A stretch of DNA of 64,000 nucleotides from an uncultured Bacteroidales bacterium (GTDB lineage Bacteria; Bacteroidota; Bacteroidia; Bacteroidales; Muribaculaceae), in contig CAMKGM010000008.1 in NCBI GenBank assembly GCA_946412245.1, positions 1 to 64,000 on the forward strand, written 5' to 3'. The translations under genes were made by a program, and so were the position numbers. Under the pieces are notes generated by a model, which searched no databases, had not been told where the DNA came from, and saw only the letters and a program-made list of their open reading frames with translations. Below, one piece after another: positions 39,333-54,541 of this stretch (its first letter is position 1; every line of letters begins with the position of its first letter).

Positions 39333-41882
39333 TCAGATGACGCCCAAGATAATATTTACCAGGGCAGTGACATCACTCACGTTCACTGCGCCGTTTCCGT
39401 CAACGTCACCGGCCTCAATGTCCATAGGAATAACTCCCAGAATCATGTTGACCAGAGCGGTCACGTCGCTCACGTTCACTGTGCCATTGCCGTCAACGTC
39501 GCCGGTTACGTGCGCATTAGGATCAACCACCTCAACAGGATAGAGTTGGAGTTTGCCCTTGTAGAGCGATACGAATGCTTTCACATCGAAGGTCTTGCCT
39601 TCAAGAACCTCGGGCATGGTCACGGTCTTGTTGAACTTGTTGAACAGGGTCATGTCGAGCGTACCGTCGTTGATGGTGTAGTAGTTGGTCGAGTCGTTAA
39701 CCAGGGTTGCACCCTTGACCCAGACGTACATGTGAACATTCTCTTGCGAGATTTCCTCAAGTGCGATTTCTTCAGGATCAACCTTAGTGCCGTCTTCAGC
39801 CTTCACGAAGGTGCTGCCCACGGGAATGAGCTGCTTGGCATCCTGATAAGTTGTCCAATAAGCCTCGGCATCACGAATGATGTTACCGTTAGCAAACTCG
39901 TTCTCAAGATAACCGTAAACCAGCGAGTAAGTGTCCTCAGTATCCTTCACATAGAGGTTGTTGCCGTTCTGATACAGAGCGATGAGGTCGCCGGTAATCT
40001 TAGCTGTGACACCGCTGTTCAGAGCGTAGAGTTCATTGATATTTGCCACCTCAGGAACTTCGATGTCGCCAATGAAGCGGGTGGGAATGAATTGCGGGTT
40101 GTTCTTGTTCACTGAGATGAAGCCTTCCACGTCGAAGTCAACGGTTTCGTCGGTAGGCAGAACCACGGTGTTATAGAAGGTGTTGTAACCGGCAGCACCG
40201 CCAATCGAGAAGTTGCGGCCGTTCACGCCTGTAATCTTCACGCCCTTGATCACGCAATAGATGTTCTGGTTAGCAGCAGTAATATCAGCTACAGTCTTCT
40301 CCACGGGAGTCACAGTCTGAGTTTGGCCGGTAGCCGTGAGACCTGTAACCTCTTTCGCCTCGATAAGGCCATTGTAGTTGTCCATGGTGCCTTGCCATCC
40401 GCCGGCAAGCACATCACCCTGGTTGAACTCGAAGTCGCTGCCAAAGATAAGGGCCGAACCAGTAGCGTCCTTGATGTAGAGGTAGCGCTTGTCGTTGGCG
40501 TCGCGGTAGGTTACCACCACTTCATTAGCAAAGGTGAACGATGTGCCCTTTTCAAGAGCCACCATCTCGGCAATCGTCTGTATGCCTTCGCCGCCACCAC
40601 CGCCGTTCACATCCTCAATCTTCATGGGCAGGATTTGATAGATGGTAGCGTTATCTTTCACATGCGAGCCAATAATGCCCCACACATTGTAGGTCTTGGT
40701 TGGGTCAGCTGTCGATGCTCCCATACCTGTGTAGTAAGAACCAGAGCCACTATTGTCGGTAATGACATAAGTCTCGGGATTCAGAGTAGCACCTGCAATG
40801 TAAACATAGTGAGCAAAGAGTGAAGCCTCGATGTCGTTCACTTGGATGGTTTCAGGATTCACAGTAACAGTGCCGCTGGGCGCCTGGAAATTGCTGCTGG
40901 CCGAAATTTTGAGTTCAGGTTCGCCTTTATAAGTGATTTTCTCACCGGTGAAGCCTGCAGGAATGATGTCGCCAGTCTTGTAGCTACGACCAATGTTGCT
41001 ACCATAGAAGTAAGCATAGCCACTGTCGTCCTTCACATAGAGGTTGTTGCCGTTATGACCTAACACTGTAACAGGATTTGTGAAGACTACCACAGTGTTG
41101 TCAGCCACATTCTGATAGGCTGCAATGTTGGCAACACTGGTTGCAGTGCCCATCACATACTCGGCAGTAGCCACTTCGCTCACCTTGCCCTCGGCTGCGG
41201 CTATAGCCTTCACCGTGGTGGTTGCGCTGATGTGAATAGGATCAGTGTACTGGGTTGAACTGGTTGTGGGAGTTGAACCATCAAGCGTGTAATAGATGCT
41301 GGCGCCGTTGGTACCGCACTTGATGGTCACATCAAATGGAGTGTAGTAGGTGCCTGCTGCAGGAGTAAAGGTGGGTGTTGACACAGTCACTTCGCCCTGT
41401 CCGTCGCTGGTCATCACAGCCTTGGCAAAACGGAACTGAGCTGCAGTGTTGGCGTCGGCACGGCACACAGTGAGCACCACACTTTTTGCGCTACCTGTCC
41501 AAGTCAGAGTCTTGGAGTTTGCATCATAGTTTACAGAACCTGTATTGGCTTTCACTTCGCCATAGGTAAAGTTTGAACCGTCTGACAGCACCATCTTGGT
41601 AATGTTCACGGTAGAGGTCACTGTCATCGTGTTGCCATCAAGGTTGTCCTTTGTACCGCCATAGAGACGCATTTCCTTGCCACTTGCATGGTACAAGGGC
41701 TGAGTTCCTGAATTACCTTTTTCAAACGAGAAGGTAAAACCATTCGACGATACCTCAGTAGCCGGCTGCACATTTGCGCTTGCGTTGCCGTACAGGTCTG
41801 AGACATTCAACGTTACCTCGGTAGCGTGTGCCATAGTCACCGCCAGGAGGCAAATGGTGAAAAGAGATAGAATTTTTCTCAT
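39333..41882 (-). CDS. Large secreted multidomain protein with chitobiase-like domain and dockerin-like tail
   Basis: An 849-residue exported protein. Signal peptide about 1-20. An N-terminal domain is followed at about 165-245 by a CHB_HEX_C_1 type domain (ASIYYTLDGSTPTTSS). Several related modules then repeat the pattern NGNNLYVKD...Y / V.GY.EN....G.I and resemble the OB-like domains of other Bacteroidales surface proteins. The C-terminus has two dockerin-like repeats, DVDGNGTVNVSDVTALVNMIL and DVDGNGAVNVSDVTALVNIIL. No catalytic motif is seen; binding of carbohydrate or matrix is a guess. Confidence 0.85.
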   Translation of the reverse strand: MRKILSLFTICLLAVTMAHATEVTLNVSDLYGNASANVQPATEVSSNGFTFSFEKGNSGTQPLYHASGKEMRLYGGTKDNLDGNTMTVTSTVNITKMVLSDGSNFTYGEVKANTGSVNYDANSKTLTWTGSAKSVVLTVCRADANTAAQFRFAKAVMTSDGQGEVTVSTPTFTPAAGTYYTPFDVTIKCGTNGASIYYTLDGSTPTTSSTQYTDPIHISATTTVKAIAAAEGKVSEVATAEYVMGTATSVANIAAYQNVADNTVVVFTNPVTVLGHNGNNLYVKDDSGYAYFYGSNIGRSYKTGDIIPAGFTGEKITYKGEPELKISASSNFQAPSGTVTVNPETIQVNDIEASLFAHYVYIAGATLNPETYVITDNSGSGSYYTGMGASTADPTKTYNVWGIIGSHVKDNATIYQILPMKIEDVNGGGGGEGIQTIAEMVALEKGTSFTFANEVVVTYRDANDKRYLYIKDATGSALIFGSDFEFNQGDVLAGGWQGTMDNYNGLIEAKEVTGLTATGQTQTVTPVEKTVADITAANQNIYCVIKGVKITGVNGRNFSIGGAAGYNTFYNTVVLPTDETVDFDVEGFISVNKNNPQFIPTRFIGDIEVPEVANINELYALNSGVTAKITGDLIALYQNGNNLYVKDTEDTYSLVYGYLENEFANGNIIRDAEAYWTTYQDAKQLIPVGSTFVKAEDGTKVDPEEIALEEISQENVHMYVWVKGATLVNDSTNYYTINDGTLDMTLFNKFNKTVTMPEVLEGKTFDVKAFVSLYKGKLQLYPVEVVDPNAHVTGDVDGNGTVNVSDVTALVNMILGVIPMDIEAGDVDGNGAVNVSDVTALVNIILGVI

Positions 41883-42050: not shown

Positions 42051-42428
42051 TCACCAACCGGCCACATTGCGCACCACCCACCACAGGACTACCAGAAGCA
42101 CCAGTGAGAGCAACACCGGGCGCGAGAACATCGTGTCGTAGAATCGCGGCCAACGATTCTTGCCGGCACTCACCGCGAGATAAAAAGCGATTACCGGCAT
42201 GGAAACAACCATCATAGCATTAAAGTGCCACGCTGTTGCCACATGGCCATGAAGTAGCGCGTGAATGGCACGCTGACTGCCGCAACCGGGGCATTTAAAC
42301 CCGGTTGACTCCAAAAACATGCATCGCGGAAACCAGCGCGACGACGAGGGGTCGAAGTAGAAATACACCAGCGCGGCGACAATGAGCACGACCGCTACAA
42401 CCGGCAACAGAACTCTACCACTTTTCAT
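42051..42428 (-). CDS. DUF2752-family membrane protein
   Basis: A 125-residue membrane protein with about three hydrophobic helices. ATG 42428 overlaps the last base of the upstream stop and is preferred over the longer frame from 42500, which lies inside that gene. The motif FLESTGFKCPGCGSQRAIHALLHG, split here as CPGCG and QRAIHALLHG, identifies DUF2752. Function unknown; in this family it is often beside CD225 proteins, as here. Confidence 0.85.
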   Translation of the reverse strand: MKSGRVLLPVVAVVLIVAALVYFYFDPSSSRWFPRCMFLESTGFKCPGCGSQRAIHALLHGHVATAWHFNAMMVVSMPVIAFYLAVSAGKNRWPRFYDTMFSRPVLLSLVLLVVLWWVVRNVAGW

Positions 42429-42985
42429 TACAGCAGCGACAGGGCTATGCTCACCGGTATCGACAGAACACCCAGCACAATAGCGGCGATGCACCACCAA
42501 GCGCTGATGTCGCTATATTTTTGTGCCTTGGCATAGTCGCCTTGATTGTATTTCGACGAAACCTGCGCACCGTAGATAATGGCGACTATAGCCGGAATTG
42601 AGCAGCAAAAGATTAAGGCGACTGCCGACCAAAACAGGTTGTGAGGCGGCCGCTTGGGCAATTCAGCGGGAACTTGCTGAGCATATTGCGGTCCGGGCAT
42701 GGGAGCGCTTTGCGAGGCAAACTGAGGCACCGGGGGCATATCCTCGGGCAGGACATCGCTCGCAAGCACGTTGGGTTGTGAATCAGAGGCCTCGGTAGGA
42801 ATCTCCGGGATTTCTTCCAGTGTCAGATGTGCCAACTCAGGCACATCGGTGGCTCGCTGCCAGTCGGCCATGCCTTTAAACCACACATAGGTTTCGCGGG
42901 TCAGCGGTCCCTGCTGCTGCAGTTCCTCAAGGGTGTATGGGCCGCTCTGCTCGCCGTTCCGGTTAATCCAAATGCGCTGTATCAT
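42428..42985 (-). CDS. GYF_2 / CD225 (dispanin-like) membrane protein
   Basis: A 185-residue protein. Residues 1-50 form a GYF_2 (DUF4339) domain, with WINRNGEQSGPYTLEELQ and YVWFKGMADWQRA. A Pro-rich acidic linker precedes a CD225 region with two membrane helices (NLFWSAVALIFCCSIPAIVA and the segment after YSDISAWW). Translationally coupled to the DUF2752 gene. GYF_2 probably docks a Pro-rich partner; the role is unknown. A -7 box TAAATTTG lies at 43010-43017 on the minus strand. Confidence 0.87.
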   Translation of the reverse strand: MIQRIWINRNGEQSGPYTLEELQQQGPLTRETYVWFKGMADWQRATDVPELAHLTLEEIPEIPTEASDSQPNVLASDVLPEDMPPVPQFASQSAPMPGPQYAQQVPAELPKRPPHNLFWSAVALIFCCSIPAIVAIIYGAQVSSKYNQGDYAKAQKYSDISAWWCIAAIVLGVLSIPVSIALSLL

Positions 42986-43124: not shown

Positions 43125-43154
43125 TTGATTTGTCAAAAAGAATTCCTAACTTTG
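43125..43154 (+). promoter_or_regulatory. Promoter of the choice-of-anchor protein gene
   Basis: TTG (43125-43127), 19 bases, TAACTTTG (43147-43154), 33 bases before the ATG at 43187. Confidence 0.7.
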
Positions 43155-43186
43155 CAAAAAAATTGATCTTAACCTTTTTACTTAAA

Positions 43187-45322
43187 ATGAAGAAATCAGT
43201 CAAACTAACGCTTGCCTTGACACTCATGATGGCATTGCTGCCACTGTTGACGCAAGCCAAGGCCGACTACTCGCCGAGCTTCATATGCGGTGTGGTCAAG
43301 GCCGACTCGTGGACAACAGGCAACAACCTGGAAGGCATCTACCAACTCAACATCACCGGCGACGGGACACTCACCAAACTCACTGAGGGTCGCAACGTGC
43401 TACAGGCTCCGCTGGGCGGCGCCGTGTACGAGGACGGCATGATGAAGGGTATCCACATCAAGCAAATTTCCGATCCCTACGACGGGGTGACCTACTACAT
43501 CTACCATGTGCAATATGACATGGAAACATGGACACAACAAAAAGCCAAATGGCTGTCGAGCACCTATGCCAACCTCATCTCGAGCTGCGGCATGGCTCAC
43601 GACCCCATTACCGGCAAGAACTATGGCATTTTCTATAACTTCAACATGAGTTTCCAAGTGCTGGGTCGCCGCCTGGCTACCATCGACTTCTCGACCGACA
43701 CACCGCAGAAGACGATCATTGGCGACGTAATGACCCAGATGGCCGCCATCGCCTTCAGCAGCAACGGATTGCTCTATGGTGTGGGCATGGACGGATACCT
43801 GTATGTCATCAACAAGGAAGCCAGTGAGAGCAGCGTGGTGGAACTGATGCCGCTGGGCAACCTGGGCGTGGACAACATATCGACCTACCCCAGTTCCATG
43901 GCCTTTGACAAGAAGACGGGCAAGTTCTACTGGAGCGTGGTGCTCAGCGACATGAAGAGCTACCTCTATGAAATCGACCCCACCGTGGGCTCCGTGAGCG
44001 CCACTCGGCTGATGCAAGTGCCTGACAATGCCTATTTGGTGAACCTCTACATCCCCGATCCTCAAGCCAACGAAGACGCTCCCGCAGCGGTGAGCAATCT
44101 ACAACTGAACTTTGAGGGCGAGTCAACTACCGGCACCGTGAGCTTCACCGCTCCCACAACCACCTACACGGGCGAACCCCTTACCGGCACCCTCAACTAC
44201 ACAGTGACCGCCAACGGCAACGAGGTGGCGCAAGGCACCGTTGAAGCAGGAGCCGACGCTTCGGCCGAGGTGACCGTGCCTGCCGGCGAGGTGGAGTTTA
44301 TCGTCATTGTCTCAAACGACAACGGCGATAGCCCCGAAGCCAAAGCCAGCCTCTACGTGGGTCCCGAAACACCTGTGGCACCCGCCGACGTGGCATTTGA
44401 CTACAACTACGACAGCAAGGAGGCTACCGTGACTTGGACCGCTCCCACAATCGGTGTGCACGAGCAGGAAATCGACCCCGAACAACTCACCTACAACGTC
44501 TACCTCATGCCCGGCCACACACTGGCAGCCGAGGGCATTACCGAGACCACATTCAAGCAATCACTCGACCCGCAAGAGCTTGCCCCCTACAGCTATCAGG
44601 TAGTGGCCGTGAACAAGAGTATGGCGAGCGAACCCGCCGCGTCGAATAGCGCCGTCATTGGTCCCGCACTGGAGGTACCTTACACACAGAACTTTAACAC
44701 GGCAGCCAGTTTCGACTTGCTCACCGTGCTCGACAACAACCGCGACGGTATCAGTTGGCAGTGGGGCAAATCCTATAGCGGCGACGGACGTGCCGAGTAC
44801 TACCCCAACAAGGACGCCGATGCCAACGATTGGCTCGTGTCGCCTCCCATCCACCTGAAGCAAGGTGCCACCTACGGCATCACATTCGACGCCAATACTG
44901 CCGTTGTCAACAATGTGGACTACATGGACGTGGCATTCGGTCAAGGTCTCAACACCGACAACTACACCAAGATTTTTGACCACATCGTGCTCAACGAACC
45001 CGTCAGTTCCACCTACTCCAATAGCGAGATTGTGTGCGAGCAGGGCGGCGTGTACTACTTCGGTTTCCACGTCACCACTCCCGCCGGTTACGGCTGGTTG
45101 CTGCTTCACAACTTCAAGATTACGCTGGTGAAAGACGCACCCGCCATTCGCGGAGATGTGGACGGCGACGGTAAGGTGAACGTGAGCGATGTCACCGCGC
45201 TGGTCAATATGATTCTGGGCGTAGTGCCTATGAATCAGGAGCGTGCTGACATTGACGGCGACGGCAAGGTCAACGTCTCCGATGTCACCGCACTGGTCAA
45301 CATCATCCTCAACGTCCAGTAA
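43187..45322 (+). CDS. Secreted choice-of-anchor/cleaved-adhesin domain protein with dockerin-like tail
   Basis: A 711-residue exported protein from ATG 43187, which gives a clean signal peptide (MKKSVKLTLALTLMMALLPL); the frame from 43130 adds promoter-overlapping residues. The first 290 residues look like a beta-propeller-type domain, followed by two fibronectin III-like modules (about 300-500). A choice-of-anchor J domain follows (YTQNFNTAASFDLL, WQWGKSYSGDGRAEYY, DWLVSPPIHL). Two dockerin-like repeats close it (about 657-711). Probably a surface or matrix protein; the ligand is unknown. Confidence 0.87.
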   Translation: MKKSVKLTLALTLMMALLPLLTQAKADYSPSFICGVVKADSWTTGNNLEGIYQLNITGDGTLTKLTEGRNVLQAPLGGAVYEDGMMKGIHIKQISDPYDGVTYYIYHVQYDMETWTQQKAKWLSSTYANLISSCGMAHDPITGKNYGIFYNFNMSFQVLGRRLATIDFSTDTPQKTIIGDVMTQMAAIAFSSNGLLYGVGMDGYLYVINKEASESSVVELMPLGNLGVDNISTYPSSMAFDKKTGKFYWSVVLSDMKSYLYEIDPTVGSVSATRLMQVPDNAYLVNLYIPDPQANEDAPAAVSNLQLNFEGESTTGTVSFTAPTTTYTGEPLTGTLNYTVTANGNEVAQGTVEAGADASAEVTVPAGEVEFIVIVSNDNGDSPEAKASLYVGPETPVAPADVAFDYNYDSKEATVTWTAPTIGVHEQEIDPEQLTYNVYLMPGHTLAAEGITETTFKQSLDPQELAPYSYQVVAVNKSMASEPAASNSAVIGPALEVPYTQNFNTAASFDLLTVLDNNRDGISWQWGKSYSGDGRAEYYPNKDADANDWLVSPPIHLKQGATYGITFDANTAVVNNVDYMDVAFGQGLNTDNYTKIFDHIVLNEPVSSTYSNSEIVCEQGGVYYFGFHVTTPAGYGWLLLHNFKITLVKDAPAIRGDVDGDGKVNVSDVTALVNMILGVVPMNQERADIDGDGKVNVSDVTALVNIILNVQ

Positions 45323-45348: not shown

Positions 45349-45380
45349 ATGTCAGCACTGATCAGTGCTGACATCGTTTT
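45349..45380 (+). terminator. Terminator with perfect 26-base palindrome
   Basis: ATGTCAGCACTGA is followed directly by its reverse complement, then CGTTTTC. Placed 26 bases after the stop of the plus-strand gene and facing a convergent gene, it most likely ends transcription. Confidence 0.75.
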
Positions 45381-45427: not shown

Positions 45428-46264
45428 TTATAGGGCGAGGCGAAGGCCGCGGTCGCCAAAACGCTCGGCGGGCGCGCTGCCGGAACGTTCCGACACGCGA
45501 CACTTGGGTACGTGCCAATTGCCGCCACGATACACGCGGAGTATACCTGAATTGGATCCAGAAGGGTTCTGCTGTGAATCACTGCTGTATTTGCCATTCC
45601 TGTCTCTGCACCATTCTTCCACGTTGCCGCTCATGTCATAAATTCCTAATTCATTGGGCTGCTTGGTAGCCACATTGTGCGTCTGGCTGCCGCTATTACC
45701 ACTATACCACGCTACTGAGCCGAGATCATTGCTGCCAGCATACTTGTAGCCGCTACTCTTGCGGCCACCACGGGCTGCATATTCCCACTGGGCTTCGGTG
45801 GGCAACTTGAATCGCTCACCCGTGAGCGAGTTCAACCGATCAACAAACTCCTGACAGTCGTTCCAACTCACTTTTTCTACGGGTCGCAAATCACCCTTAA
45901 AATTGCTGGGATTGCTGCCCATCACCGCCTGCCACAGTTTCTGTGTAACTTCAGTTTGGCCGATGTAGTAAGAAGACAGCGTGACGCTATGGGTGGGTTT
46001 CTCGTTACTAAAAGCATCGCTGCCCTGCTCGCTCGTGGCGCCCATCGTGAACGTGCCGCCTTCGACTGCTACCATGGTGAATGAAACACCATTGACAGTA
46101 AAAGTCTTGTTTTGCATGGCACGACGGGGTTCGGGCTGCTTTTTGGGTGGTTTGATGTTTGTGGGGGCGGGTTTAGTGGGGCGGGTGATATGGCCGCCGG
46201 CCTTCTGTGCAAGGGCAAGGGTGGGAAGCACCACCATCAAGAGGACTATCAAGTATTTTTTCAT
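45428..46264 (-). CDS. Secreted SUMF1/FGE-like domain protein
   Basis: A 278-residue exported protein: signal peptide (about 1-19), Pro/Lys-rich linker, then an FGE-sulfatase (SUMF1) fold from about 53 with FTMVAVEGGTFTMG, QTEVTQKLWQAVMG, LPTEAQWEYAARGG, MSGNVEEWC and RGLRLAL. The paired copper-binding cysteines of true formylglycine-generating enzymes are not evident near the C-terminus (one Cys, in PKCRVSE), and no sulfatase is nearby, so a ligand-binding role is more likely. The domain closely resembles the outer domain of the kinase at 52508-54457. Last gene of the signalling locus. Confidence 0.88.
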   Translation of the reverse strand: MKKYLIVLLMVVLPTLALAQKAGGHITRPTKPAPTNIKPPKKQPEPRRAMQNKTFTVNGVSFTMVAVEGGTFTMGATSEQGSDAFSNEKPTHSVTLSSYYIGQTEVTQKLWQAVMGSNPSNFKGDLRPVEKVSWNDCQEFVDRLNSLTGERFKLPTEAQWEYAARGGRKSSGYKYAGSNDLGSVAWYSGNSGSQTHNVATKQPNELGIYDMSGNVEEWCRDRNGKYSSDSQQNPSGSNSGILRVYRGGNWHVPKCRVSERSGSAPAERFGDRGLRLAL

Positions 46265-46339
46265 TTTAGTGAGGGTTTTAAGTGGTTAGTATTGAATTGT
46301 TAATGAACTAAATATGCCTTATAGGCTTATTAAACGTAA

Positions 46340-47914
46340 TTAGAAAGGGGTGCCGGACTTGGAGTACCACTGGCCTTTGTCGGGCTGGCCATTTTTGAAT
46401 GTGCCGTCGAAGTAACTGCCGTCGGCTTTGATGGTGTAGCGTCCTTTCAAGAATTGGTTATCCTTGAAAGAACCATTAAAGGAATCACCATTATCGTAGA
46501 TGAAGGTGACGTTATCGCCTTCCATCTTGCCATGCACAAAGGGACCCTTATAGAGGCGGCCATCGCTGAAAGAAGCCTCGCCATAGCCGTTGGGCTGATT
46601 GTTGCCGTCGATGGCACCTGTATAAGAGCAAACGCCCAGTGCCGACTTGAAGTAGATGCCCTCGGCATAAAAAGCGGTGGAGTCTTGAACTTCGCCGTTA
46701 GCGGCATTGATGACTGCAACAGAATCGACATCGAGGGTGTCGCCTCCCTTCCCTGATTTAGAGACCAGCAGGATGACTATGCCAACAACCACAAGTGCTG
46801 CAACAGCTGCGGCAATGACTTTAGGTGAGAGAAGTGGGGAGTGAGGTTTGGGGTTTGGGGAATCTTGGGAATCTTGGGAATCTTGGGAATCTTGGGAATC
46901 TTGGGAAATATGGGAATTTTTGGATTTTTTGGACTTTTTGGGCTGTTGCGGTTCTTCATTGCCACCGAACACGGTGCTCTCGTCGAAAGATTCTGCCACA
47001 GGCGCTTGCTTGACGGGGGCCTCGCGATTACCAGCAAGGAAATCCCTGACCTGCTGCACCGACTGTGGCCGGCTTGTCCGTCGCAGTGTCATCATCCACT
47101 GCACGAGCCGCCGTGTGCGCTCACTCACGCCGGCAGGATACTGGAAAGCGTCGTCGTCCTGCAACTCCGAGACCGTGGGGGGCTGTTTGCAAGAGAGCAA
47201 CGTGTAGAGTGTGCCGCCCAGTGCGTAGATATCGGTCCAGGGACCGATGAGTTCCATCTTCTGGTCGATTTGTTCGGGTGGCGCATATCCCGGTGTGTAG
47301 CACATGGCCGTGGTTGTGGTGGTGTAACCTTGCCCGGCTGTGAGTTGCTTGCTAGCTCCGAAGTCGATGACCTTGACCACGTCCTGCGAGTCGACCATCA
47401 CGTTTCCGGGCTTGAGGTCGAGGTGCCAGATGCCTTGTGCGTGAACGGCATCGAGTGCATCAAGCACTTGATCAAGCACGCCGAGTGCCTCGTCCTCGCC
47501 CAAAGGGCGATTGGTGCGCTTGAGTCGCTGCGAGAGCGACTCGCCGTCGACATAGTCCATGACGTAGTAGCTGGTGTCGTTCTCATCAAAGAGGTCGTGC
47601 ACCTGCACAATGTGCTGGTTGTGTAACTTGCGCAATCGGCGAGCCTCCTTATTAAATTTATCGCGCTGTGAGTCGAAACTCTGCTGGTTTGCAGCGTTGC
47701 TCACGCTCACGGTGTTGTGGTCGTGGCGCTCGCTGACACCACGCATGAAGAACTCCTTCATGGCCATGCGCTCGTCGAACTTGGTGTTGATCACCACGTA
47801 GGTGTTGCCGAATCCGCCCGAAGCGAGGCATTTCTCAACACGATACTTGCCCATTTGCAGTGTGGCGCCCACCGGCAGCATCTCGTTATGGTTGATTTGG
47901 TTTTGTTCAGACAT
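46340..47914 (-). CDS. Membrane Ser/Thr protein kinase with extracytoplasmic MORN repeats
   Basis: A 524-residue kinase. The cytoplasmic Hanks-type domain (about 23-295) has the Gly loop ASGGFGNTY, Lys53 in MAMKEF, HLDLKPGN (Leu replaces the Arg of HRD), IDFGAS and GYAPPEQ. A linker with five QDS tripeptides (about 336-350), encoded by a 9-base DNA repeat, leads to one membrane helix (about 364-385). The outer part (about 430-520) carries MORN repeats such as YGEASFSDGRLYKGPF and DGSYFDGTFKNG. It is a paralogue of the kinase at 52508. Confidence 0.92.
   Translation of the reverse strand: MSEQNQINHNEMLPVGATLQMGKYRVEKCLASGGFGNTYVVINTKFDERMAMKEFFMRGVSERHDHNTVSVSNAANQQSFDSQRDKFNKEARRLRKLHNQHIVQVHDLFDENDTSYYVMDYVDGESLSQRLKRTNRPLGEDEALGVLDQVLDALDAVHAQGIWHLDLKPGNVMVDSQDVVKVIDFGASKQLTAGQGYTTTTTAMCYTPGYAPPEQIDQKMELIGPWTDIYALGGTLYTLLSCKQPPTVSELQDDDAFQYPAGVSERTRRLVQWMMTLRRTSRPQSVQQVRDFLAGNREAPVKQAPVAESFDESTVFGGNEEPQQPKKSKKSKNSHISQDSQDSQDSQDSQDSPNPKPHSPLLSPKVIAAAVAALVVVGIVILLVSKSGKGGDTLDVDSVAVINAANGEVQDSTAFYAEGIYFKSALGVCSYTGAIDGNNQPNGYGEASFSDGRLYKGPFVHGKMEGDNVTFIYDNGDSFNGSFKDNQFLKGRYTIKADGSYFDGTFKNGQPDKGQWYSKSGTPF
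46865..46909. repeat. In-frame 9-base tandem repeat in the kinase linker
   Basis: Five copies of a TCTTGGGAA-type unit (plus strand) in exact 9-base register, read as QDS on the minus strand. Confidence 0.9.
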
Positions 47915-47917
47915 GAG

Positions 47918-47959
47918 ATTTCAGTTATCAGTTGTCAGATTTCAGATGACAGATGTCAG
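47918..47959. repeat. Six 7-base repeats filling the kinase mRNA leader
   Basis: Read on the minus strand: CTGACAT, CTGTCAT, CTGAAAT, CTGACAA, CTGATAA, CTGAAAT, in exact register, ending three bases before the ATG at 47914. The promoter lies immediately upstream. Confidence 0.92.
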
Positions 47960-47963
47960 TTTG

Positions 47964-47994
47964 CAAAGTTATAAATTATCTGTTTTAGTGTCAA
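47964..47994 (-). promoter_or_regulatory. Promoter of the MORN kinase gene
   Basis: Minus strand TTG (47992-47994), 20 bases, TAACTTTG (47964-47971). Transcription would start near 47957, at the first heptad of the repeat array. Confidence 0.75.
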
Positions 47995-48018
47995 GAGTAA
48001 TCGCAACCATTGCAGCCT

Positions 48019-48921
48019 TTAATTCTTGAGCCAACGGGTGAAGCGCTTCCAGGCCGATTGTGGCTTGTCCTGAGCCACAGGGGGTGCTGACGGAGCAGCC
48101 TGCTCAAGCACAATTGCATTGTAACGCGAGGTGGCCTCGTCGTTGGGCTGCTGGTCGTCGGTCGATTCGCGCTCCACGCTGGCCACCTGTAGCATGTGTG
48201 CCGTGTGATTGTCGGCATTATCGGCGGTGAGGTCAATGAGCCGCTCCCACAACTGTTGCTCTGGAGTTTCGGTCACAGTCTTGAACAATGCTTCGTCGGT
48301 GAGCTGCTCGAGCACGCCGTCGCTGCACAGCATGAACCAGTCGCCGGGCTGCACATTGGTGGTGTGGGTGATGTCGAGTTTGGGGCGACGCTCCTGGCAA
48401 GGCATGAGGGCGCGGGTAATGACATTCTTGCGAGCCGACGATGACATCTGCTCACGGGTAATCTCACCCGACAAATAGAGGTCGTAGACCAGCGAGTGAT
48501 CGCGCGACTTGTAGAGGATGCCGATGCCCGGGCGCATGTGATAGATGCGGCTGTCGCCAATGTGCGCCATGGTCACACCACCGCGGTGCATGGCCACAAG
48601 CGTGAGAGTAGTTCCCATCTTGCGCAGGCTGCCATTGTCGTGCTCGTCGAGGCGGTCCTGGACCTCGTCGAGTGCACGACGCAGCACCTCGTCGGCCAGA
48701 GGCTGCTCGGGATTCCAGTGTGCCAGCAATTCTTTGGCTAACTCGCTGCACACCAGCTGGCTTGCTACCTCGCCATTCTCATGGCCTCCCATGCCATCGC
48801 ACACGATGAAGAGGCGGTCGGCAGTGGTAGCAGCACCCACGAGGGGATACATGCTGTCTTCCTGATTGTCGCGATGGCCCAGTTCCTGCATAGAGATGGG
48901 CTGATGGGTAGAGAATTTCAT
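48019..48921 (-). CDS. PP2C-family Ser/Thr phosphatase
   Basis: A 300-residue cytoplasmic PPM phosphatase that probably reverses the kinases in this locus. The metal-binding motifs are LGHRDNQEDSMY, FIVCDGMGGHENGEVAS, MAHIGDSRIYHM and MLCSDGVLE. The C-terminal 60 residues are an unstructured Pro/Gln-rich extension ending WKRFTRWLKN. Its ATG overlaps the stop of the FHA gene upstream by four bases (ATGA). Confidence 0.94.
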   Translation of the reverse strand: MKFSTHQPISMQELGHRDNQEDSMYPLVGAATTADRLFIVCDGMGGHENGEVASQLVCSELAKELLAHWNPEQPLADEVLRRALDEVQDRLDEHDNGSLRKMGTTLTLVAMHRGGVTMAHIGDSRIYHMRPGIGILYKSRDHSLVYDLYLSGEITREQMSSSARKNVITRALMPCQERRPKLDITHTTNVQPGDWFMLCSDGVLEQLTDEALFKTVTETPEQQLWERLIDLTADNADNHTAHMLQVASVERESTDDQQPNDEATSRYNAIVLEQAAPSAPPVAQDKPQSAWKRFTRWLKN

Positions 48922-49433
48922 GATTCAAGCGGTTTTTGGGTGAAACGCAGCAGCTGGGTTCCCAGCACAAGTTCGTCGCCGTTGTCAAGCACAAGACGCT
49001 CGCCTTGAAGCACGGGTTCATCGTTGAGCAGCATAGGGCGAACCTGTATTTTCTCGGCATCGCGCAAGTCACTGAGTACCACTTTTACGCGTCCACTTTT
49101 AGTTGCGATGGCATCCATTAGACAATGCACGCGACTTATGGACCTGTCATTGGTGAAAATGCCCACGGTAGCACTGCCCGACTGACTTGCACGGCCCACA
49201 ATGTTACGGCCTTCGCTTAAAGTGTAATGTTGCCCATTGTGCGTGAGATAGCCCGGTACTGTGGCGGCTTCGTGCTTAGGGACAAGAATGGTCTTGCCCG
49301 TGTCGAAACGCACACGAATGCGCCCCCCACACTGTGGATTAGGGCACTTGACCATAAGCACAGGTTCGTCATTGGGGTTTGTCACCTCCAGTCGTCCACG
49401 GCAGGCTGGGCAGGTTATGATTTTGCTTTCCAT
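48918..49433 (-). CDS. Zinc-ribbon FHA-domain protein
   Basis: A 171-residue cytoplasmic protein. Residues 1-45 form a zinc ribbon (CPAC, then CPNPQCGGRIRVRF). The FHA domain (about 70-165) has the phosphothreonine-binding signature NIVGRA, then SISRVHC, with the strand VLDNGDELVLG. It would bind phosphorylated partners of the kinases. Translationally coupled to the PP2C gene and 20 bases after the caspase gene. Confidence 0.92.
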   Translation of the reverse strand: MESKIITCPACRGRLEVTNPNDEPVLMVKCPNPQCGGRIRVRFDTGKTILVPKHEAATVPGYLTHNGQHYTLSEGRNIVGRASQSGSATVGIFTNDRSISRVHCLMDAIATKSGRVKVVLSDLRDAEKIQVRPMLLNDEPVLQGERLVLDNGDELVLGTQLLRFTQKPLES

Positions 49434-49452
49434 AATTGCAAGAAATGAGTTT

Positions 49453-50172
49453 TCAATTCTTTTTGGGCCAGCTCATGACGGGCATATCGTTGTTGAAATT
49501 GCCCCACATGACGGGGTGCTGACGGTCGCGAGAGGCTTCTTTCACACCTTTACTCACGAAATCAAAGAGTTCCTTAGCAGTGATGATGCGATTGAAATCG
49601 GTATCTGCACCGCCCCGCAGCCCCCGTTCCAAATAAGCGGTAAAGAGGCTGTTCTTCCAGGAGCGTTTCTCGATTGATGTCTCGTTGGTGCGTGACGAGA
49701 GGAAGAACATGACGCTTGTCTCGGCAGGCTTGTGAGAACGGCGATTGGTATTGCGCGCCTTGCCCGAAAAGCAGGCATCTGCCCACACCATTTTGCATTT
49801 GGCAGGTGAAGCGAGCATGGCATGGGTAATATCGTCGTAACGCAACAGATTGTCGTAGCACACAAAACCGCCCGGCACGCCGTGGCCGCTGAAGAACATG
49901 ATCACGGCATCGTCGGCACCGGCACGGGTAAAGAGGTCGGTCATGGCCTTCTTCACTGCGTCGACGGTAGCATTGCTGTTGGTGAGAATCACGGTTTCAG
50001 CATCTTGATGACCATAAAGGTCTTTTATTGTCCGAGCATCTTGTGCGCTGAGTTTCAAATCGTTCTGCGTGCCAGGATAGTCGGCCATACCTACCAACAC
50101 CACATAGTTCTTGGCACTGGCCGTAACAGCCAGGACCAAGAATGTGATGAGGAGTTGCATTCGTTTAAGCAT
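49453..50172 (-). CDS. Secreted caspase-like (C14) peptidase
   Basis: A 239-residue metacaspase-like protein with a signal peptide (about 1-20), so it would act outside the cytoplasm. The catalytic His is in FFSGHGVPGG and the Cys in WADACFSGKA. It begins YVVLVGMADYPG, the usual first strand. Export is unusual for a caspase-fold protease, and its place between an FHA gene and a membrane protein gene suggests an effector or processing role. Substrate unknown. Confidence 0.9.
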   Translation of the reverse strand: MLKRMQLLITFLVLAVTASAKNYVVLVGMADYPGTQNDLKLSAQDARTIKDLYGHQDAETVILTNSNATVDAVKKAMTDLFTRAGADDAVIMFFSGHGVPGGFVCYDNLLRYDDITHAMLASPAKCKMVWADACFSGKARNTNRRSHKPAETSVMFFLSSRTNETSIEKRSWKNSLFTAYLERGLRGGADTDFNRIITAKELFDFVSKGVKEASRDRQHPVMWGNFNNDMPVMSWPKKN

Positions 50173-50201
50173 AGTTCTTGTTGTTGCTGTATTGTATTAA
50201 A

Positions 50202-51215
50202 TTAGACCATCTGCACATCGGCATCGTTCACATAGTCAGGCATATCAGGAGCCAGGTCTTCGGATTCTTGATTCATGGCCAGAGTGGATTCATCGGGACT
50301 GATAGAAGCCTCTTGCAACGATGCCTCTGCAAACTGATCTACAGACAAATTCTGGTCGCTAATGTCTTCGATGGTATCCTGCCGGTCGAACTCGTTGTTG
50401 CGGTTTGTGTCGGCAACCGATACTTCGAATACACGATCATCGTCAACATCAATGAGCGCCACATGCACATCGTCGACCGACATGTGGCCCACATTCACCT
50501 GCTGACCGTCGATCACGTCGGTCTCTACCCCCAGGAAGTGGACTTCGGGCTCGTGACCCCCACCTTCGGCGCCAGCAGTGTGAGCGGTGCCACCAGTGGG
50601 CTGGTCGTGATGTTCGACATGGTCAGGCTGTTCAGTGTACTCAACGTGTTCGGACTCTTCAGACTGTTCAGACTGTTCAGACTGTTCAGACTGTTCAGTG
50701 TGTTCAGGCTGTTCGTGGTGAGTGGACTGCTTGGCTGGTGGAGTATCGTGATGCTCATGGTGCGTTTCGGTGTGATGTGCCGTGTGTTCTACTCCCGTGG
50801 GGTTCTGAGCCTCGTCGGCAATCTCGGGCTGCACCTGCTGGGCAAAGGCATCGCGTTCAGCAGGCGTGAGGCTGTCCCATTCTTCAGCAGTGAAAGTGCT
50901 GTAGACATTGCCATGCCAGTGGAAAACGCCTCCGGTTCCCACCTGGTGGCGAGCATCGGCGAAAGCATCGGCGAAACTAAGGTTCTGGTCAACTTCGGCC
51001 ACATGAAGTTCATCGTTGTCAGTTGCATTGTCATCGGCATCATCGCCATTGAACAGGGTTGTAGCAGCGACGGTACCTACTCCAAGAAGGATGGCCGATG
51101 TACCGGCAATTGCTACTTGCTTCCAAGTGATTTCGTCTTCAGATTTACTACTGGTTTTCTGGTTGGCTGCTGGTTGTTCTGCTGCTCCGTAGATGGTCTG
51201 GTCTTCAGTGTTCAT
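50202..51215 (-). CDS. Acidic/His-rich single-span membrane protein of the signalling locus
   Basis: Unrecognised family, 337 residues from ATG 51215; the frame from 51260 overlaps the promoter. One membrane helix (about 32-52, VAIAGTSAILLGVGTVAATT) follows a short cytoplasmic tail. Next comes a compact motif, FADARHQVGTGGVFHWHGNVYST then EEWDSLTPAERDAF, that looks like a conserved module. A His/Glu-rich stretch follows, with TEQSEQSEQSEQSE encoded by a 9-base repeat, and then an acidic C-terminal domain. It heads the operon with the caspase, FHA and PP2C genes. Confidence 0.8.
   Translation of the reverse strand: MNTEDQTIYGAAEQPAANQKTSSKSEDEITWKQVAIAGTSAILLGVGTVAATTLFNGDDADDNATDNDELHVAEVDQNLSFADAFADARHQVGTGGVFHWHGNVYSTFTAEEWDSLTPAERDAFAQQVQPEIADEAQNPTGVEHTAHHTETHHEHHDTPPAKQSTHHEQPEHTEQSEQSEQSEQSEESEHVEYTEQPDHVEHHDQPTGGTAHTAGAEGGGHEPEVHFLGVETDVIDGQQVNVGHMSVDDVHVALIDVDDDRVFEVSVADTNRNNEFDRQDTIEDISDQNLSVDQFAEASLQEASISPDESTLAMNQESEDLAPDMPDYVNDADVQMV
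50651..50700. repeat. In-frame 9-base tandem repeat encoding EQS units
   Basis: GTTCAGACT units (plus strand) recur every 9 bases, about five copies, read on the minus strand as repeating EQS. Confidence 0.9.
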
Positions 51216-51257
51216 AGTTGTGATATTTTTGTGGTTTGTAAAAATGTTCTGATGTTG

Positions 51258-51298
51258 CAAAATTACAATCCGGCCAAAGCTTTGTCAAGACTTTGGCC
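51258..51298 (-). promoter_or_regulatory. Promoter and overlapping inverted repeat ahead of the caspase operon
   Basis: Minus strand TTG (51286-51288), 20 bases, TAATTTTG (51258-51265). GGCCAAAG (51272-51279) and CTTTGGCC (51291-51298) form an inverted repeat straddling the -33 element, a plausible operator. Confidence 0.7.
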
Positions 51299-51392
51299 CG
51301 TGTTCTCCACAAAACATAGCGTTTTAGTGACGAAATGCCCTTGCGAGATGAGATTTTGCATCACCTCACCCAAATACTATTTTTTCTGGTAG

Positions 51393-52076
51393 TTATTTCT
51401 TCCACTGCACCTTGCAATGGGGGCAGCCAGAACTCTGGCGCAGCATCTCGAAGTCTTGCAAATTGAGCAGTCGGCCACAAGCGGGGCACTTGTAGCGGCG
51501 CTTGGTGTCTTGCAGGAGCTGGTCTTGCTCACGCGGAATGCGCGACGACTGCATAAAGGCGATGACAAAGAAGGCCAGCGAGATGACTGCAGCGGCAATA
51601 TAGAGGAAGAACACTGCCCCACCCCTGCCAATGCTGAAACCAAGCACCATGGCAGCCATGGTGATCAAGCCGGTGGCTGAACGCAGCGTGTTGAAGCGGC
51701 GTTCCCTGATTTGCATCTTGAGGCGTTTTTCCTGATAATCGTCCCACACCTGCTGCAACCCACTGATGTCGGCCATCTTGGGGATGAAGGGGTCGAGGAT
51801 GTCCCATGTGAGTTTATAGTTCTCGCCACCCAGGGTGATGCGGTCGCCGTGGGTGATATACTTGGCTTCGATTCCGCGATGGTTAACGAAAGTGTCGTTA
51901 TCTACATTCAGGTTGGTGAGCAGCAGCGAGCCGTCGTCGCCAATGGTGAGTTTCACATGCTGTTGCGATACACTGCGAGGCACGCTGTCGGCGGCACCAA
52001 AGGCAGCACTCTTGCCATCGACGGTGATGCGCAACTTGTTGGTTTCGGCATCACGACCTATGATTAATTCTTTCAT
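51393..52076 (-). CDS. FHA-domain membrane protein with C-terminal zinc ribbon
   Basis: A 227-residue protein. The FHA domain is N-terminal (LIIGRD, SVSQQHVKLTI, TFVNHRGI, DRITLGG; about 1-90). A charged, possibly coiled segment is followed by two membrane helices (about 134-178) and a C-terminal zinc ribbon (CPACGRLL and CPHCKVQWKK). It would place a phosphopeptide reader at the inner membrane. It lies 27 bases after the LytTR gene and probably shares its transcript. Confidence 0.9.
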   Translation of the reverse strand: MKELIIGRDAETNKLRITVDGKSAAFGAADSVPRSVSQQHVKLTIGDDGSLLLTNLNVDNDTFVNHRGIEAKYITHGDRITLGGENYKLTWDILDPFIPKMADISGLQQVWDDYQEKRLKMQIRERRFNTLRSATGLITMAAMVLGFSIGRGGAVFFLYIAAAVISLAFFVIAFMQSSRIPREQDQLLQDTKRRYKCPACGRLLNLQDFEMLRQSSGCPHCKVQWKK

Positions 52077-52102
52077 ATCTTTCGTTCAATTATTATTCGT
52101 TT

Positions 52103-52465
52103 TTACACTCTTGCCTCAACAATCAGCTCTCGCATGCGACGCAGGGCATCTTTCGACACCGGTAGCTGGAAGGCAAAGGTGGCCATATCTGACATCACCA
52201 GACGCTGATGCGCCAAGTCGACGCTGTAAACGAAGTCAAGATTCACAATAAAACGCTTGCCCACTCGCATAAAACGCCGGGACTGCTCGCCCAGCTGCTG
52301 CGCCAGGGCGGTCTCGGTGCGCGCCAGCGTGGCGCCAATGGTCGACTTGAGTTTGTTCATCGCCACCACATGGGTGTAATTGCCGTCGGCCTCGAAGTAC
52401 ACCACCCGGGAAATGTCGAGCCTGAGCAACTGGTCGCGGGTATTAAAAAGTAACAGGTGTTTCAT
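52103..52465 (-). CDS. LytTR DNA-binding domain protein
   Basis: A 120-residue stand-alone LytTR domain without a receiver domain. ATG 52465 (MKHLLLFNTRDQLL) is preferred; ATG 52504 would add 13 residues and sits three bases from the upstream stop. Family motifs: VVYFEADGNYTHVV, FMRVGKRFIVNLDFVYSVD and LPVSKDALRRM. As it lacks a response-regulator receiver it may be controlled by phosphorylation or by amount. It lies between a kinase and an FHA gene and could regulate this locus. Confidence 0.88.
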   Translation of the reverse strand: MKHLLLFNTRDQLLRLDISRVVYFEADGNYTHVVAMNKLKSTIGATLARTETALAQQLGEQSRRFMRVGKRFIVNLDFVYSVDLAHQRLVMSDMATFAFQLPVSKDALRRMRELIVEARV

Positions 52466-52507
52466 TACGCTCTTTTTTATGAGAAAATCTTTGACATTTG
52501 TCATGCT

Positions 52508-54457
52508 CTAAAGGGCAAGGCGGAAACCAAAATATTCTAAATAATTTGGCGGGTTGGCGTAACTACGGGTCGAAACAATACACTCCCAAGAGCTTTCATT
52601 CCAACTGCCTCCACGAGCTACACGGAAGTTGCCCGAAGCTGGTCCCATGGGATTTGTCAAGCGTGGTTCTGTGCCATAAGGCCCATACCAGTCATAGCAC
52701 CATTCGCATACATTGCCACTCATGTCGAACAATCCCAGTTCGTTAGGAATTTTCTTGGCAACATCATGAGTAGTACCATCGCTATTTTCTTCAAACCAAG
52801 CCACAGAACTCAAGGCATCACCATTGCTACCAGCATACTCATATTCCTTGGTCATAATGCCTCCTCGGGCTGCAAACTCCCATTGGGCTTCAGTGGGTAA
52901 ATGGAACTTGACACCTGTCAGTTCATTCAGTTTACGGATAAACTCCTGACAATCATTCCAATTCACAGTTTCTACTGGTCGGCGAGGCCCTTTGACGCTG
53001 CTGGGGTTGGTACCCATCACAGCCTCCCACAACTCCTGAGTCACCTCGGTCTCGGCCATGTAGAACGATGAGACGGTAACTTCTTGCATATTAAAATCAT
53101 CATAAGCAACAGTATCTAAGTCAAGAGGAACTGCCATCTCTGAAATAGAATCCATTACTTCAAACTCTCTTGTGAATGTTCCCCCCTCCACAGGTATCAT
53201 AGTGAACGACACACCATTTACCGTAAATGTTTTCTTTTCAGAAGTCCATTCGGGGGTAAGATTGGGGACATCAGAATCAGTGCCCGTCTTATTTTCACTT
53301 TTGCCCAGGACCAACCACAATACAAGTGGAATCAAAATCACAGCTCCTATACCAATCCCTGCCAGCAGTTTGCGATTGTGCCACAAAGGTGTGGTTGATT
53401 TCTTGATTTTCTCTAAAAGGCCCTGTTGTCGATTCTTGTTTTTTCCCTTGTTACTTGTTTTTTTAGGCTCCTTTACATTCAACACAGTTTTCTCATCATT
53501 AACTGAAATGCTATCTGCTTGACGAGAAGTATCTGACAGCATCGCTTTATCGTTGGCAACATCTTCAGAATTCTCATCAGGTACGGCCAAGAAAGCCCGA
53601 ACCTCGGCCACCGACTGCGGACGCTTAGTTCGCCTCGGCGACATCATCCACCTTATGAGTTGCTGTGTGCGTTCTCCCACTCCATCGGGATAAACAAACG
53701 CATCCTCTTCATGAAGTTCAGAACCCATGGGAGGTTGTTTGCGAGTTAGCAAGTTGTAGAGTGTGGCACCCAGTGAATAGAAGTCGGTCCACGGACCAAT
53801 GAGTTCCATTTTCTGGTCGATTTGTTCCAAAGGAGCATAGCCAGGTGTATAACACATAGCCGTAGTGGTAGTTGTGTAACCATCACTGGCATTCATCTGC
53901 TTGCTTGCACCAAAGTCAATCAGTTTGGCTGTGCCGTCGGCATCCATCATCACGTTGCCAGGCTTCAGGTCGAGATGCCAGATGCCTTGGCTATGAACTG
54001 CCTCAAGTGCATCAAGCACCTGATCAAGCACCTTGAGTGTCTCAGCCTCAGAGAGAGGTTTGCCTGTGCGTTTCAAGCGTTGCGACAGTGATTCGCCATC
54101 GATATAGTCCATTACATAATAGGTTGTACCATTCTCGTCGAATAAGTCATGTACCTGAACAATATGAGTATTGTGGAGATTATTGAGACGTTGCGCTTCT
54201 TTCTTGAATTTCTTTCGTTGGCCGTCAAAACTCGCCTGATTGGTGGCATTGCTCACACTCACCGTGCTGTTCTCGTCACGCTCACTCACTCCTCTCATGA
54301 AGAACTCCTTCATGGCCATGCGTTTCTCGAACATGATGTTCATCACCACATAGGTGTTTCCGAAACCGCCCGAAGCAAGGCAACGCTCAATGCGATACTT
54401 GCCCATCTGTAACATAGTTCCCACGGGCAACATTTCGTGATGGTCTTGATCTTGCAT
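52508..54457 (-). CDS. Membrane Ser/Thr protein kinase with extracytoplasmic SUMF1/FGE-like domain
   Basis: A 649-residue kinase. The cytoplasmic Hanks-type domain (about 20-290) has ASGGFGNTY, Lys50, H161-L-D163 in WHLDLKPGN (no Arg before the Asp), D181-F-G and GYAPLEQ. A basic linker leads to a membrane helix (about 365-385). The outer part (408-649) is a SUMF1/FGE-like domain with FTMIPVEGGTFT, AETEVTQELWEAVMG, LPTEAQWEFAARGG and FGFRLAL. The paired copper cysteines of true FGEs are not apparent. It probably senses an envelope ligand. First gene of the signalling locus. Confidence 0.93.
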   Translation of the reverse strand: MQDQDHHEMLPVGTMLQMGKYRIERCLASGGFGNTYVVMNIMFEKRMAMKEFFMRGVSERDENSTVSVSNATNQASFDGQRKKFKKEAQRLNNLHNTHIVQVHDLFDENGTTYYVMDYIDGESLSQRLKRTGKPLSEAETLKVLDQVLDALEAVHSQGIWHLDLKPGNVMMDADGTAKLIDFGASKQMNASDGYTTTTTAMCYTPGYAPLEQIDQKMELIGPWTDFYSLGATLYNLLTRKQPPMGSELHEEDAFVYPDGVGERTQQLIRWMMSPRRTKRPQSVAEVRAFLAVPDENSEDVANDKAMLSDTSRQADSISVNDEKTVLNVKEPKKTSNKGKNKNRQQGLLEKIKKSTTPLWHNRKLLAGIGIGAVILIPLVLWLVLGKSENKTGTDSDVPNLTPEWTSEKKTFTVNGVSFTMIPVEGGTFTREFEVMDSISEMAVPLDLDTVAYDDFNMQEVTVSSFYMAETEVTQELWEAVMGTNPSSVKGPRRPVETVNWNDCQEFIRKLNELTGVKFHLPTEAQWEFAARGGIMTKEYEYAGSNGDALSSVAWFEENSDGTTHDVAKKIPNELGLFDMSGNVCEWCYDWYGPYGTEPRLTNPMGPASGNFRVARGGSWNESSWECIVSTRSYANPPNYLEYFGFRLAL

Positions 54458-54509: not shown

Positions 54510-54541
54510 CAAAAATACAAAATATCCCAAAACTATGCAAA
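54510..54541 (-). promoter_or_regulatory. Promoter of the signalling locus
   Basis: Minus strand TTTG (54538-54541), 20 bases, TATTTTTG (54510-54517), 53 bases before the kinase ATG. Confidence 0.8.

Follow-up and report, generated by a model that had tools for sequence, protein, structure and literature searches.

In the type VI secretion system (T6SS), the PpkA–PppA–Fha pathway uses phosphorylated Thr14, near the N-terminus of the membrane protein TssL, as a mark that is read by Fha (PMC3953482), and the FHA domains of DgcB and OdhI read tails with acidic and hydrophobic neighbours (PMC6733907). In the LytTR Regulatory Systems, exemplified by HdrRM and BrsRM, a membrane protein inhibits the regulator, and the published LytTR repeats mostly lie 12 bp apart and mostly end 4–11 bp before the −35 box (PMC6193735). 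Some metacaspases and orthocaspases have N-terminal signal or transmembrane (TM) segments, and some are fused to FGE-sulfatase domains (PMC3501461). Here we describe a nine-gene minus-strand locus at positions 45428..54457 of a 64,000-nucleotide stretch (the window) of contig CAMKGM010000008.1, from an uncultured Muribaculaceae bacterium of the order Bacteroidales. The locus encodes two receptor-like Ser/Thr kinases (K1 and K2), a PP2C phosphatase, two FHA proteins (FHA1 and FHA2), a LytTR protein, an exported caspase-fold protease (CASP), a membrane protein (MEMB) and an exported SUMF1-like protein (SUMF). Its parts are of known kinds, and the literature searched contained no description of the locus, nor of their combination, the threonine docking motif or the promoter repeat reported below. 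We consider it probable that the locus is an envelope-sensing Ser/Thr phospho-signalling circuit that drives a LytTR regulon.

As in the T6SS pathway, a Ser/Thr kinase, a PP2C phosphatase and an FHA reader are encoded together, and a membrane protein (TssL there, MEMB here) has a threonine in its cytoplasmic N-terminal part. Unlike that pathway, the locus has two zinc-ribbon FHA proteins, a LytTR protein, an exported caspase and MEMB. In a partial scan of the flanks of the related loci, no T6SS family was among the 25 of 405 families listed for 132 of 566 ORFs; a VipB model matched none of 20 genomes, yet it likewise had no match in 198 genomes of the order and may miss the Bacteroidetes subtype. 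As in the LytTR Regulatory Systems, a LytTR gene stands directly upstream of a membrane-protein gene, and direct repeats 12 bp apart lie upstream of the target promoter. By contrast, an FHA domain and a zinc ribbon mark the membrane neighbour here, kinases and a phosphatase are present, and the repeat precedes MEMB and the caspase gene rather than lytTR and is farther from the −33 box; the autoregulatory repeat typical of those systems was found, by the strict pattern, in 1 of 73 LytTR upstream regions. The GarA, OdhI and DgcB switches share with the locus a short threonine tail, with acidic residues before and hydrophobic residues after, that would be read by an FHA domain. The tails here, in contrast to those in PMC6733907, are mostly on separate proteins (the kinase linker and MEMB), and the +1 residue is Ile or Val, not Ser. 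Finally, Pfam and alignment place CASP in Peptidase C14, with the caspase fold and His-Cys dyad of metacaspases and orthocaspases, and its profile matches solved metacaspases; the operon section of PMC3501461 does not name a kinase–PP2C–FHA–LytTR block.

The circuit that we propose would work as follows. Membrane kinases with exchangeable ectodomains (SUMF1, MORN, Sel1, PEGA and others) would sense the periplasm or the cell surface and phosphorylate motif threonines at two places: the kinases' own linkers and the tail that MEMB, a single-pass protein, extends into the cytoplasm. FHA2, anchored in the membrane, and FHA1, which is soluble, both carry a zinc ribbon and would read the phosphothreonine mark, which PP2C would remove. 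LytTR would carry the signal to DNA and would probably be held or released by its neighbour FHA2; in the boldest step of the scheme, phosphothreonine would switch FHA2 as the membrane partner of LytTR. LytTR would then activate the MEMB–CASP–FHA1–PP2C promoter through a 9-12-9 bp direct repeat, and similar sites precede further exported proteins in related genomes. MEMB and the exported caspase would act outside the cytoplasm.

To gauge conservation, a caspase profile was built from 14 caspases. Relatives in named genomes were the best 80 of 441, and the named loci are therefore biased to close relatives. Profiles of the families in the window were used to annotate 109 loci (L032–L060 and L082–L161); subtraction of 6 duplicates and of 9 loci below a 150-bit caspase cut left 94, and 19 without 3.5 kb on both sides were set aside, leaving 75 for counts of gene order. 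The exact order LytTR–FHA2–CASP–FHA1–PP2C, on one strand, is kept in 49 of these 75 caspase-baited loci. On the same strand as the caspase gene, MEMB is present in 66, FHA1 in 65, PP2C in 65, a kinase in 61, FHA2 in 57, LytTR in 57 and SUMF in 17, and in 5 loci the caspase stands without any of the other families. The record titles name Prevotella, Segatella copri, Leyella stercorea, Bacteroides, Odoribacter, Butyricimonas, Alistipes and Muribaculaceae. Since other Bacteroidales loci repeat these families in this order, the gene set is beyond chance, and the co-occurrence and conserved order on which the preliminary description depended are borne out. Of 101 genomes of the genus, 28 encode the caspase (E 1e-10 or better) and 16, the window counted, encode a closer form (at least 43% identity). 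Two minor observations concern these loci: a second, divergent MEMB-like gene adjoins the main one in L102, L111, L123 and others, and L147, a Bacteroidales-type locus, stands under the title of a Clostridium sp. metagenome-assembled genome and is probably mislabelled.

An FHA2 profile, a bait independent of the caspase, matched 9 of 295 genomes in an even sample of the order and 5 of 296 in one of the phylum, with the window's own genome in both samples. The 14 FHA2-baited loci, which come from 12 genomes (three from G584) and some of which end at contig edges, contain PP2C in 11, a kinase in 11, FHA1 in 10, LytTR in 8, MEMB in 6 and the caspase in 3. The core is thus two FHA proteins, PP2C and a kinase, and the caspase, because it is present in 3 of these 14 loci, is a common but optional output. 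The proteolytic output first envisaged for the locus therefore holds for one version of the system and not as its definition. An annotated Parabacteroides distasonis record shows the caspase-less version, with genes for LytTR, FHA, a hypothetical protein, FHA, PP2C, a kinase, a hypothetical protein and a kelch protein. Another caspase-less locus (L251, NZ_OY725779.1) lies on a 375-kb record that is labelled a plasmid and also carries hydrogenase genes; it may be chromosomal.

The phospho-signalling logic of the preliminary description gained support from a short threonine motif and from the conservation of the kinase, PP2C and FHA residues. The motif, [DE]xT[IV]-hydrophobic, occurs between the kinase domain and the TM helix in 52 of 100 kinases (those of 129 with a TM helix by the chosen threshold), compared with a shuffled mean of 4.6 and maximum of 12; the kinase profile covers residues 1–300, and motifs at 285–299 lie partly within it. 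Reversed linkers gave 6, and patterns in which the threonine was replaced by Ser, Ala and Val gave 3, 4 and 11, respectively. The cytoplasmic tails of the MEMB family carry the motif in 59 of 98 cases (shuffled mean 1.3, maximum 6), a count that is partly dependent because the MEMB profile takes in the tail. In MEMB, Thr7 does not vary across 14 sequences, and in a set of 64 its conservation is 90% or higher. The motif is also in excess in FHA1, to a lesser degree, but not in LytTR, FHA2, PP2C or SUMF. The catalytic residues of kinase, phosphatase and caspase and most FHA ligand residues are almost invariant: kinase Asp166 in 113 of 113, FHA1 Arg81 in 82 of 82, FHA2 Ser37 and His40 in 74 of 74, and CASP His97 and Cys134 in 95 of 95. 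These observations suggest that the motif is likely to be a phospho-tag for FHA1 and FHA2, phosphorylated by the kinases and then bound.

The window's genome, which is 98% complete, has two FHA domains by search, one PP2C of this kind and one caspase, all in the locus. It has three close kinases, all with the motif (K1, K2 and one on contig 10), and four more weak kinase-like matches. The contig 10 kinase (L191:8570-10345), of the same family, lies far from the locus; it has a SUMF1 domain but lacks an obvious TM helix, its linker contains two motif copies, EVTVL and EETTF, and it may feed the same FHA readers.

An envelope-sensing role with an extracytoplasmic protease, as had been suggested, is supported by the variety of kinase ectodomains and by the caspases, 90 of 95 of which carry an export-type N-terminus. 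Among 83 kinases scanned (81 of 123, plus two from the window), ectodomains matched MORN in 13, SUMF1 in 7, Lcl_C in 6, Sel1 in 4, PEGA in 4 and TonB_C in 3. The ectodomain of K2 in the window gave no Pfam match for MORN, which by eye we take it to be.

The upstream regions of MEMB genes share two copies of the sequence [AG]TTT[CT][AG]T with a period of 21 bp, some 50 bp ahead of the −7 box. The search patterns were drafted after the alignments had been seen, and the one applied to 1.64 Mb of loci was looser than that applied to the window's genome and to the 101 genus genomes. The loose repeat plus promoter gave 49 matches in the 1.64 Mb and 0 in shuffled sequence; 34 precede MEMB (window counted), 4 CASP, 1 LytTR and 1 a kinase, and 9 precede other or no called genes. 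In its stricter form, the repeat has one match in the whole of the window's genome, the MEMB promoter, and 64 matches in the 101 genomes versus 2 for the reversed pattern, although some of these AT-rich matches look like chance. Within 350 bp upstream, a repeat pair was found for MEMB (37/112), CASP (4/95), LytTR (1/73) and kinase genes (1/122) and for none of the FHA2, FHA1 or PP2C genes, with 0 for all genes in the reversed control; of 64 half-site pairs in the loci, 40 have a spacing of exactly 21 bp. Of the 28 genomes with the caspase, 20 bear the repeat, versus 16 of the 73 without it (P = 6e-6); for genomes with the closer caspase the figure is 14 of 16. This overlap is partly the locus counting itself. 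Read as 9-12-9 bp, the repeat has the spacing of published LytTR sites (PMC6193735), and LytTR is a candidate to bind it. In addition, the LytTR gene is found no more than 150 bp upstream of FHA2 in 63 of 68 loci, with a median gap of 6 bp.

A possible wider regulon was examined in nine genomes with at least 3 matches or two well-formed ones, covering 28 stretches and 30 sites. Behind the repeat stand more MEMB–FHA1–PP2C cassettes, four with a kinase (L226, L231, L242 and L244) and one with no kinase in view (L228), outer-membrane beta-barrel proteins (L234, L235 and L240), proteins with Sel1/PEGA, LRR, MORN, WG-repeat and TonB_C domains, and an M3 peptidase; several of these domain types recur as kinase ectodomains. 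Separately, four genomes (L224, L233, L236 and L241) have, directly behind the repeat, a member of an exported protein family that is about 340 residues long and has no Pfam match. The repeat also precedes a 27-residue hydrophobic ORF (L225), a similar small ORF (L230) and a SUMF-type lipoprotein (L246); in all three, an HtrA/Do-type protease gene comes next. The small ORF of L225 and L230 looks like the remnant start of a SUMF gene.

Several observations weigh against a LytTR-driven envelope circuit. The system is patchily distributed (9 of 295 order genomes), and the caspase is missing from 11 of the 14 FHA2-baited loci, some of them clipped by contig ends. Among kinase linkers, 48 of 100 lack the strict motif, as do 39 of the 98 MEMB-family tails, and the usual FHA arginine is less than 80% conserved in FHA2. 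The strict repeat precedes MEMB or CASP in just 38 of 94 loci, and the MEMB motif count and the overlap of repeat with caspase are partly circular, as noted above. In the window, the repeat ends 18 bp before the −33 box and its half-site letters are unlike those of the LytTR sites in PMC6193735. Because this distance from the promoter is unusual, our confidence is lowered both in the circuit and in its standing as a new class.

One alternative is a mainly post-translational circuit, as with PpkA–PppA–Fha in the T6SS, in which an envelope machine or the caspase would be gated when the MEMB tail is phosphorylated and FHA proteins dock, with LytTR just setting expression levels. Thr7 is among the most conserved residues of MEMB, TssL Thr14 and Fha provide a direct parallel (PMC3953482), and LytTR is absent from 18 of the 75 loci and 6 of the 14 FHA2-baited loci; however, the repeat before the MEMB promoter and the adjacency of LytTR and FHA2 indicate a transcriptional branch too, and the partial flank scan revealed no recognised secretion machine, so we regard this alternative as unlikely, if worth serious weight. 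It is quite doubtful that a different regulator binds the repeat while LytTR has its target elsewhere: the assignment to LytTR is our deduction, the repeat in L051 and L054 precedes a caspase gene with no core genes nearby, and the spacing to the −33 box differs from that of published LytTR sites (PMC6193735), but LytTR is the sole DNA-binding protein seen in the block and the 21-bp periodicity suits it. A defence role, raised earlier and here taken as an anti-phage or abortive-infection system in which the kinases detect phage and the caspase kills the cell, is very improbable: known defence systems do contain caspases and Ser/Thr kinases, the distribution is patchy, the kinase, PP2C and caspase models of PADLOC match the locus, and the 132 flank ORFs include three matches to radical-SAM pVip models and two to AbiD/PDC-S02, but those three PADLOC models alone matched the locus, without the system-specific proteins of any known anti-phage system, a MAD6 match reached 132 bits against a 460-bit NCBIfam cut-off, the caspases mostly have export-type N-termini and were not found in a phage collection, repeat-marked genes elsewhere encode envelope proteins, and the flanking genes are ordinary, with seven relatives beside GroES- and GroEL-type genes.

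The envelope-sensing circuit may, we suggest tentatively and with less than even confidence, represent an undescribed class of bacterial envelope-surveillance system: modular receptor kinases, one phosphothreonine code, an FHA–zinc ribbon pair, a LytTR activator released by FHA2 and a 9-12-9 regulon of exported caspases and other envelope proteins, with a role in Bacteroidales like that of sigma-E and Cpx, the envelope counterparts in Proteobacteria. There is a fair chance that the class is distinct. If the circuit works as proposed, it would provide a route from Ser/Thr phosphorylation to DNA in a major gut and rumen order, exported bacterial caspases would gain a regulatory setting, and the docking motif and promoter signature could be used to map circuit and regulon in other genomes.

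The features of the locus are listed in Table 1. An ORF check recovered all nine genes of the preliminary description at their positions, and Pfam confirmed their domains: two Pkinase, PP2C_2, two FHA, LytTR, Peptidase_C14 and two FGE-sulfatase (SUMF1) domains, one of the last being the C-terminal part of K1. SUMF1 domains have been linked to diversity-generating retroelements (DGRs); the window's genome has no RVT_1 match, and RVT_1 proteins of whatever type, DGR or other, occur in 12 of 20 searched genomes. The gap between K1 and LytTR is 3 bp, and FHA1 and PP2C overlap by 4 bp. MEMB was called as an ORF at 50202-51260, with KRAB, below the cut-off, as its sole Pfam match; its start is likely to be the ATG at 51215 rather than the TTG at 51260, because relatives begin there. 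Searches with its extracytoplasmic part (a WHG signature and an Asp-rich beta domain) gave no clear relative.

Table 1. Coordinates of the locus and its sequence elements in the window.
Feature	Position	Strand	Basis
K1: Ser/Thr kinase, TM helix, SUMF1 domain outside	52508..54457	-	ORF + Pfam
LytTR DNA-binding protein	52103..52504	-	ORF + Pfam
FHA2: FHA domain, two hydrophobic segments, C-terminal Cys4 zinc ribbon; membrane-anchored putative reader	51393..52076	-	ORF, Pfam, alignment
MEMB: N-terminal cytoplasmic tail with Thr motif, one TM helix, extracytoplasmic WHG domain, Asp-rich beta domain	50202..51215	-	
CASP: caspase-fold protease, signal-type N-terminus, His97 + Cys134	49453..50172	-	ORF, Pfam, alignment
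FHA1: N-terminal Cys4 zinc ribbon, FHA domain; soluble putative reader	48918..49433	-	ORF + Pfam
PP2C phosphatase	48019..48921	-	ORF + Pfam
K2: Ser/Thr kinase, TM helix, MORN-like ectodomain	46340..47914	-	ORF + Pfam; MORN by eye
SUMF: exported SUMF1-like protein	45428..46264	-	ORF + Pfam
DEKTVL: Thr motif in K1 linker	53480..53497	-	
EDQTIY: Thr motif (Thr7) in MEMB tail	51189..51206	-	
DESTVF: Thr motif in K2 linker	46967..46984	-	
Direct repeat ATTTCGTCA-12 bp-GTTTTGTGG, candidate LytTR operator	51307..51336	-	alignment + pattern search
Promoter of K1-LytTR-FHA2	54510..54540	-	pattern scan
Promoter of MEMB-CASP-FHA1-PP2C (TTG ... TAATTTTG)	51258..51288	-	pattern scan
Promoter of K2-SUMF	47964..47994	-	pattern scan
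Palindromic terminator-like hairpin, between locus and converging gene	45349..45374	.	sequence scan

The promoter positions proposed earlier (54510, 51258 and 47964) coincide with the exact ends of matches to TTG-N17..22-TAnnTTTG, a pattern with 15 sites in the window versus a shuffle mean of 3.0, and the three promoters split the block into K1–LytTR–FHA2, MEMB–CASP–FHA1–PP2C and K2–SUMF. A sigma-70 scan (12 sites versus 8.3 expected) did not single them out. An inverted repeat, GGCCAAAG...CTTTGGCC, at window 51272-51298 overlaps the −33 box of the MEMB promoter; its arms are intact in the sister species L032 and were not seen in the other listed upstream regions.

The nearest neighbours of the locus in the window are housekeeping or exported-protein genes. 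The seven genus loci beside GroES- and GroEL-type genes are among L036 and L039–L045; we take the 90- and 546-residue neighbour proteins to be GroES and GroEL, and NCBIfam backs the GroEL identity in three loci. On the 3′ side of the locus in the window lie two large proteins with dockerin type I domains (39333-41882 and 43130-45322) and a small protein with GYF_2 and CD225 domains (42428-42985).

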